Source of the DNA: Parafilimonas sp. | GTDB taxonomy: Bacteria > Bacteroidota > Bacteroidia > Chitinophagales > Chitinophagaceae | Direction of reading: 5' to 3' | Length of the DNA stretch: 12,442 bases | Assembly (NCBI GenBank): GCA_023251275.1 | Contig: JAHEZC010000020.1 | Span: 1 to 12,442 of the forward strand | Shown here: positions 4,110 to 11,011 of the stretch, one piece after another | Numbering within the stretch: position 1 is the stretch's first letter | Layout: every line of letters begins with the position of its first letter | Program-made: the position numbers and the translations under genes | Notes under the pieces: generated by a model | Database searches by the model: none | The model's input: only the letters and a program-made list of their open reading frames with translations | Told to the model about the DNA's origin: nothing

Positions 4110-4358
4110 TCACATTGCTGCAAGCTGAACTTTTTGGGTAAGTTCCATTACATTTTCACGGAATAAATTATCAGTATCCATCAGGTCTTTTACAGTTTGG
4201 CAACTATGAATAACAGTTGTATGATCTCTTCCGCCAAAATGTTCACCAATCGTTTTTAGTGAGTTCTTGGTAAAGGCCTTAGCGAGGTACATAGTTATCT
4301 GGCGGGCCTGAACAATTTCGCGTTTTCTTGTTTTCTGGAGGAGTTTATAATAAGGCAC
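4110..4358 (-). CDS. dnaA: DnaA domain IV (DNA-binding) fragment, downstream part of the interrupted dnaA
   Basis: This is the C-terminal part of DnaA, in the same reading frame as the upstream part and separated from it by one TAA at 4368-4370. The coordinates start at a possible GTG at 4358; the frame is open up to the stop, adding Tyr-Phe-Asp before it. It holds the helix-turn-helix domain that recognises DnaA boxes, including the basic helix QKTRKREIVQARQ and the family signature FGGRDHTTVIHSC. Translation as a separate 82-residue protein would need reinitiation at GTG, 9 nt after the stop, or readthrough of TAA. No Shine-Dalgarno-like sequence is visible. Sequence conservation is excellent up to the TGA at 4110-4112, so there is no decay after the stop. 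That argues for a recent mutation, a sequencing error or functional expression rather than an old pseudogene. Confidence 0.85.
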   Translation of the reverse strand: MPYYKLLQKTRKREIVQARQITMYLAKAFTKNSLKTIGEHFGGRDHTTVIHSCQTVKDLMDTDNLFRENVMELTQKVQLAAM

Positions 4359-4367
4359 ATCAAAGTA

Positions 4368-5537
4368 TTAGCAAACCATTTTCTGAATAGCATCAATTGT
4401 AATTTCCTTGCTGCTTGTTTTAATGAAATTACGCAGCACTTTCTTGGCAAGTTCAAGATCAATTTCTCTTTTATTGAGCGATGATTGCGCCAGCAGGGAA
4501 ATCAATGCACCCTCGAGTTCACGCACATTGGTAGTTATATTATACGCTACATATTTCACTACTTCTTTCGGCATCTCCAGACCATCATTTTTCATTTTCC
4601 GCTCAAGAATCTCGATCCTTGTTTCATAATCGGGTATCTGCAGATCAGCGCTTAATCCCCAACGGAAACGGCTGAGCAGCCTCTCCTGTAAACCATCGAG
4701 ATCTTTGGGAGCTTTATCTGAAGTAAGCACCAATTGTTTTCCACTTTGGTGAAGATGATTGAAAATAGCAAAAAGTGCATCCTGGCTTTTTTCAGCCCGT
4801 GAAAAAAACTGCACATCGTCAATGATCAGTGTATCTATTAACTGGTAAAAATGAATAAAATCATTGATAGCATTGTTACGGCTGTGATCTTGAAATTGAT
4901 TAATGAATTTTTCACTGCTTACATACAACACGACCCTGTTATGATGCAAACGCTTTACTTCATTGCCTATGGCTTGCGCAAGATGCGTTTTGCCCAAACC
5001 AACGCCTCCGTAAATTACAAGCGGATTAAATGAATTTGCGCCTGGTTTGTCTGCAACAGATTTTCCGGCGCGTCTTGCTACCCTGTTACAATCACCTTCA
5101 ATCAGCGCATCAAAAGTATATGCAGAATTAAGCTGCGGATCAATCTGCATCTTTTTCAATCCCGGAATTACAAACGGGTTCTTAACAGGATTAGGTATTA
5201 CCAAGGGAAAATCCATTTCATTGTTATTGTAAATTTTTGCAGTTCCTGCGGGAATATCCATGCTTCCATTGCTCCCGCCGCTGTCAACCATAATGCGGTA
5301 TTCCAACCTTGCATCTTTTCCCATTTCTCTTTTCAAAGTCTTTGCCAATAAATTCAAATAGTTCTCTTCAAGATATTCATAAAAGAATTGACTGGGCACC
5401 TGTATCAGCAATACATTATTATTTTTCAGTTCGATAACCTTAATTGGTTGAAACCATGTTTTATAATGCTGCCACTCTACTATATCCTTTATAATTTTCA
5501 GACAATTATCCCAAATGGATTCAGCGGTTTTGGTCAT
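4368..5537 (-). CDS. dnaA: Chromosomal replication initiator DnaA, domains I-III, ending at a premature in-frame TAA
   Basis: DnaA is the AAA+ ATPase that binds and melts the origin to start replication. This frame encodes 389 residues: domain I (about 1-85, AESIWDNCL to RIMVD), a linker, and the AAA+ domain (about 135-370). Walker A is GGVGLGKTH (177-185), Walker B is LIIDD (237-241), the box VII arginine region is ERLLSRFRWGL (285-295) and the sensor II region is NVRELEGAL (337-345). The frame ends after IQKMVC at TAA (4368-4370), where related proteins, as I recall them, read MVC-Glu-YFDVP. A single G-to-T change of GAA would produce it. Reading through gives 475 residues, the normal family length. 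Without domain IV this product could bind ATP and oligomerise but not recognise DnaA boxes. The start ATG at 5537 fits the conserved N-terminus. Other explanations are a sequencing error, a second dnaA elsewhere, or a split protein. Confidence 0.93.
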   Translation of the reverse strand: MTKTAESIWDNCLKIIKDIVEWQHYKTWFQPIKVIELKNNNVLLIQVPSQFFYEYLEENYLNLLAKTLKREMGKDARLEYRIMVDSGGSNGSMDIPAGTAKIYNNNEMDFPLVIPNPVKNPFVIPGLKKMQIDPQLNSAYTFDALIEGDCNRVARRAGKSVADKPGANSFNPLVIYGGVGLGKTHLAQAIGNEVKRLHHNRVVLYVSSEKFINQFQDHSRNNAINDFIHFYQLIDTLIIDDVQFFSRAEKSQDALFAIFNHLHQSGKQLVLTSDKAPKDLDGLQERLLSRFRWGLSADLQIPDYETRIEILERKMKNDGLEMPKEVVKYVAYNITTNVRELEGALISLLAQSSLNKREIDLELAKKVLRNFIKTSSKEITIDAIQKMVC

Positions 5538-10355: not shown

Positions 10356-11011
10356 ATGAAAAAAATATTTATTTATTTGTTGCTTTCTTTCCCGCAATAT
10401 ATTCATTTGAGCAAATTAAAGAGGGAAGTAAAGTATTGACAAGCACAATTGGCATTTTAGGAATTGGTATCAGTGAAAGTAAAACGACATCTGATATTAA
10501 TCCCACTTTGACAACAAAATCACGAGGATTTGGCTTTAATAGTAAAGTAACTTATGGAAAAATTTAAAAATTAAATTTATGGTCCTATGGATTAAACTTT
10601 TCTTGGAGATTAAACACGCAATCTAATGGAGGAAGTGACTACCATTCAATCGGTTTTGCTCCTGTTGTAACTTATCAAAAATTTTATTCAATAACTAATA
10701 AATTATATTTTTCTCCATTTACGAAGTTGAGTATCGGCTATCAATATTCAAAACAAGATCCTACAGCTTCTTCGTCAGCATTTATTCAAAAAGGCATAGT
10801 AGGTTCTATAGCTTTCTATCCATTCTCTGTTGCATTTTCAAAAAACCACAAAACTAATTTTCTCTTTATGCTGGGTAATACTTCAATTAATTATGATAGA
10901 ACAAAATCTTTTTATGAAGCAAATCTTGATAATGGTAAAACCATCTCAAGTAGTCTTTCTATTAATGCTAGTATTGGTGGAATTAGTTTTGCCATTCAAA
11001 AACTATTTTAA
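10356..11011 (+). pseudogene. Decayed outer-membrane beta-barrel-like protein gene
   Basis: The ATG at 10356 opens a signal-peptide-like start, MKKIFIYLLLSF, but this frame ends at TGA near 10437. The continuation lies in another frame, beginning PAIYSFEQIKEGSKVLT, so about one base has been lost near 10387-10393 in the TTTCCC run. That frame has a further TAA at 10565-10567 and then stays open to 11009-11011. Restoring the base gives about 218 residues: signal peptide, short helix, then alternating polar/hydrophobic strands rich in aromatic residues and glycine (GFAPVVTYQKF, TKLSIGYQYS, SINASIGGISFAIQKLF), ending in a terminal Phe as barrel proteins do. The function is unknown. The stretch is more AT-rich than its neighbours. 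The longest intact piece, 10727-11011 from a TTG, is unlikely to be made. An assembly error could explain one lesion but less easily two. Confidence 0.65.

Follow-up and report, generated by a model that had tools for sequence, protein, structure and literature searches.

The window, that is, the whole stretch of 12,442 nucleotides that was analysed, carries on its minus strand a dnaA gene (5537-4110) that comprises 475 codons upon translation, contains a single internal stop and terminates at its own TGA. The stop is an in-frame TAA at 4368-4370 (minus strand), codon 390 of the gene, and DnaA is accordingly not encoded here in one continuous frame. The preliminary description of this DNA had reported the same single stop and a read-through length of 475 residues; translation confirms both, and domain matches demonstrate that the sequence is coding on either side. 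An open tail of 85 codons has a chance probability of about 0.003 at 39% G+C; whatever this estimate, it is homology that is decisive for the coding status of both sides of the TAA.

The part upstream of the stop (4371-5537, minus strand; 389 aa) contains domain I (PF11638, DnaA_N, 8.9e-16), the AAA+ ATPase domain III (PF00308, Bac_DnaA, 8.6e-57) and the beginning of domain IV (approximately 9 positions). The downstream part (4110-4367, minus strand), which is open to the TGA, comprises the remainder of domain IV including the FGGRDHTTV motif and matches PF08299 and the protein chain 1j1v_A. Domain IV as a whole is matched by PF08299 with 104.5 bits over positions 1-69, with the one TAA inside the match read through by the search; as the match extends over 4397-4191 of the window, the TAA falls at about position 10 of the 69 positions of the model. 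Thus, the TAA does interrupt dnaA, as had been proposed, but the further proposal that it sets the ATPase and DNA-binding domains apart does not hold exactly, the stop being located within domain IV. Compared with bacterial DnaA of the Chitinophagaceae type, the gene has the same order of domain I, AAA+ domain and domain IV, an amino acid identity of at most 90% and a similar length (475 codons versus 475-481 aa in the full-length relatives among the matches listed), whereas the in-frame TAA at codon 390 sets it apart.

The first in-frame ATG, GTG or TTG past the TAA is a GTG at 4356-4358 (minus strand), four codons on, and the next in-frame ATG after it is codon 416 of dnaA. The preliminary description was right to name GTG 4358 as a possible restart site, although inspection of the frame establishes this as a possibility only. 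If it were used, ribosomes would halt at the TAA and restart at this GTG, and the resulting ATPase and DNA-binding pieces would assemble into a two-piece DnaA. The position of the GTG is compatible with such an arrangement, as is the good conservation of the second piece, which matches positions 18-69 of PF08299 at 4.1e-24 and residues 20-88 of the DnaA domain-IV chain 1j1v_A. However, the cut would fall inside domain IV: residue 5 of the restart piece aligns with residue 20 of the 94-residue chain 1j1v_A, so the restart product would correspond to this chain from about residue 16 onward and would lack approximately positions 1-13 of PF08299. The protein database does contain short DnaA C-terminal entries (139 in all), but several of the 19 inspected lack an initial methionine or have a foreign start, as would result from cut or chimeric contigs. 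Together with the comparison of relatives described below, these observations render the assembly of DnaA from two such pieces extremely improbable.

Conservation of the site and of the gene in relatives

A PF08299 match was found in 274 of the 294 genomes of the same family and in none of the remaining 20. The best match was inspected for all 274 genomes, and a stop is present inside it in a single one, the window's own; comparison of dnaA among relatives, which the preliminary description had suggested, therefore yielded no second instance of the stop. A split initiator would be expected to be common to relatives, but the best match is free of stops in each of the other 273 genomes of the family that have one. 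A working split protein is thus disfavored both by a cut that falls within domain IV and by the lack of the stop in the other family genomes. At the level of individual codons, 110 relative loci could be aligned across the site (the window's own loci L001-L003 are excluded, and some loci may represent one genome twice). None of these alignments contains a stop; the codon in the respective column is GAA in 73 loci, GAG in 22, GAT in 10 and GAC in 5, corresponding to 95 Glu and 15 Asp residues, in agreement with the statement of the preliminary description that family members usually have Glu at this position.

Several family genomes present peculiarities of their own. In G024, G033 and G227, for example, the frame that contains the best PF08299 match is short and probably does not represent dnaA; in these drafts (90-100% estimated completeness), the sole match lies in a frame of 132-162 aa, and dnaA is seemingly absent from the assembly. 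In G285, a further, partial PF08299 match below the threshold (23 bits) contains a TGA. In many genomes (e.g. G170, G042 and G203), short frames of about 98-246 aa with a weak match to DnaA domain IV are found in addition to dnaA; these may be transposase-linked helix-turn-helix domains.

Most of the closest relatives of the window's DnaA are records that bear the name Chitinophagaceae or Bacteroidetes, which suggests that the genome belongs to the Chitinophagaceae. Among the best 120 of 8000 scored protein database entries none but the window's own exceeds 90% identity, in a database clustered at 90%, where nearer copies may sit inside a cluster. The genomes compared include no other member of the draft's genus. 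For the 108 of the 110 relative loci whose alignment covers the tail, amino acid identity averages 87% upstream of the stop and 94% downstream; with no relative closer than these, such values would be compatible alike with a recent mutation, an error and retained function. No decay of the post-stop part is apparent from the identity to the 108 relative loci. The dN/dS ratio has been left unused because synonymous divergence was inestimable for most of the 30 pairs.

At 8 positions of dnaA, the stop included, the state is absent from all 110 relative loci, a number of private positions above the 90th percentile of these loci (4) and below their maximum (46); two of the 8 are more than one base change away from every relative's codon. 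The private residues were also considered as a sign of error, but lineage divergence is mixed in them with possible error, and they decide nothing in this respect. They do bear on the idea that the TAA is a genuine nonsense mutation of very recent origin, present in the strain sampled or in part of the population, the carriers of which would be dying, possess a second allele or subsist on weak natural readthrough. The 8 private positions are in favor of this idea in that the lineage does diverge, but the two that are more than one step from the relatives show only that the lineage is isolated. Furthermore, dnaA is essential in the bacteria studied, which speaks against a tolerated nonsense mutation, as does the failure to find another dnaA copy in the draft. 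A young mutation of this kind is a minor possibility that we nevertheless rank second after a consensus error, given that other genes of the draft broken by stops (see below) could be real pseudogenes.

Stop codon usage and the search for a second dnaA

Reassignment of a stop codon would be recognizable by a tRNA that reads it combined with its avoidance as a terminator. In the sampled contigs, 225 open frames of 220 codons or more have a visible end; 123 of these end in TAA, 66 in TGA and 36 in TAG (the frames were not checked individually and include stops of broken genes). No stop anticodon was detected among 29 tRNA genes, a set that is incomplete, with Phe, Val and Ile unrepresented. TAA serves as an ordinary stop codon in this genome, and the preliminary description's view that a general reassignment is unlikely is well supported, even though its premise that the other genes of the window end in TAA applies to only five of the eight ORF ends examined, of the others two (those of dnaA and homoserine dehydrogenase) being TGA and one TAG. 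Decoding of the TAA as an amino acid, through either a suppressor tRNA or general reassignment, would be consistent with the frame being open on both sides. Against it stand the common use of TAA as a terminator and the tRNA genes found, as well as the fact that two other genes of the draft, encoding a UvrA paralogue and an Omp85-type protein, are broken by TAG and TGA instead; we regard such decoding as highly unlikely.

The window is contig C44 of a draft genome of 645 contigs and 3.34 Mb that is 83.2% complete and 0.58% contaminated. Several of the sampled contigs contain N gaps, and the fragmentation suggests that the genome was probably assembled from mixed DNA (a metagenome). A second copy of dnaA, one of the options raised in the preliminary description, was not found in this 83%-complete draft, which yielded one PF00308 match and one PF08299 match, both to the gene described here. 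An intact dnaA could conceivably reside in the missing part of the genome, about 17%, which would make the present copy an ordinary pseudogene. Apart from the incompleteness of the draft, a precedent may be seen in G152 (84% complete, 4% contaminated), in which two matches were found, one in a frame of 453 aa and the other in one of 485 aa. However, across 126 distinct genomes, the present one included, second matches are located in short frames (98-246 aa), with the exception of G247, whose two matches occupy frames of 125 and 340 aa; genomes do not as a rule carry a second dnaA of full length. As the present dnaA is, moreover, undecayed, a missing intact copy appears improbable.

Broken genes elsewhere in the draft

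The dnaA gene is not the only broken gene on its contig. A second one, at 10356-11011 on the plus strand, combines a frame change in the region of the signal peptide, where a signal-peptide-like start lies in a different frame than the remainder, with an in-frame TAA at 10565-10567. Five homologues of this gene were found; the four that were aligned are continuous, 218-224 aa in length, and all have a basic residue at the position of the TAA. By inspection, the product is a small secreted or outer-membrane-like protein, for the pieces of which two Pfam scans found no family.

Elsewhere in the draft, a gene for a UvrA paralogue contains one in-frame TAG (2302-2304 of L176, contig C566) that separates pieces matching positions 203-889 and 891-937 of NF001503; an uninterrupted UvrA is encoded on contig C6 of the same draft. 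An Omp85-type gene has an in-frame TGA (3783-3785 of L191, contig C138) between two pieces matching PF01103, the first over positions 76-210, weakly (E 0.0015, under the curated cut-off), and the second over positions 225-315 at 3.6e-12. A TPR-like protein gene near a contig end is probably broken by a TAA (2952-2954 of L162, contig C100), its short first piece having no family match. The UvrA paralogue, the Omp85-type gene and the gene for the small protein could be true pseudogenes. Since the draft contains other broken genes, one of them on the same contig, the interrupted dnaA carries less significance than the preliminary description implied.

The frequency of such breaks was assessed in a sample of 464 kb, of which 81 kb are N, leaving 383 kb unmasked, the window included; the contigs are a non-random choice, some having been picked mostly for earlier search matches and others by number, and 31 of the 80 are entirely N. 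A strict coding-potential scan over 307 kb returned dnaA as the sole in-frame candidate. A looser scan, with N excluded, gave 21 raw candidates in 383 kb; a finished relative gave 20 in 400 kb, so that no raw excess of in-frame stop candidates over this control was found; most of the candidates resemble ordinary gene ends. By eye, four of the 21 (dnaA, the small protein, UvrA and the TPR-like protein) are recognizable breaks, versus one of 20 in the control, whose candidates were not checked with family models; this difference is suggestive at most and proves nothing. The Omp85-type gene fell under the cut-offs of the scan. In the finished relative G022, a frame that by eye resembles a regulator contains an in-frame TGA (4523-4525 of L229), and such breaks thus also occur in the family.

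The error rate of the draft is not gross, since no stop was found in the genome's 41 PF00005 matches (some of them weak or cut by contig ends), nor in one partial rpoB match and two tRNA-synthetase matches, the latter three being too few to be informative. Of random base changes in the codons of this genome, 4.6% produce a stop. If the error rate is taken to be 1e-4 per base, about 14 false stops would be expected over 3 Mb of coding sequence, and some of these would hit essential genes, so that a reader scanning many drafts will meet such a case.

Origin of the stop and its implications

The TAA in dnaA is probably an error of the consensus sequence in a fragmentary draft rather than a working feature. 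This explanation is favored because the interrupted gene is the sole dnaA found, the stop is private to this genome, the tail is undecayed, other genes of the draft are broken and the draft is fragmentary. The stop would represent a single-base difference in the draft consensus, for instance, at a site covered by few reads, with which the source reads would be expected to disagree; the living cells would most likely possess an uninterrupted dnaA and produce an ordinary full-length DnaA. Spurious interrupted genes occur in draft or metagenome-assembled genomes, and the present case resembles them in that the stop is isolated and single, the gene is undecayed, the break is absent from relatives and other genes of the draft are broken; it differs from them in affecting an essential gene.

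A working DnaA of either kind, split or read through, is unlikely even when both are considered jointly, and is unsupported. In particular, it is very unlikely that DnaA is produced in this bacterium as two pieces, or through regulated readthrough of the TAA, with the DNA-binding part being separate or rare. When an essential gene is interrupted in a fragmentary draft, the break is absent from relatives and the sequence is undecayed, the interruption should be treated as an error until the reads have been checked. A real and fixed TAA would mean that an essential initiator works split or by readthrough, which would be a striking exception.
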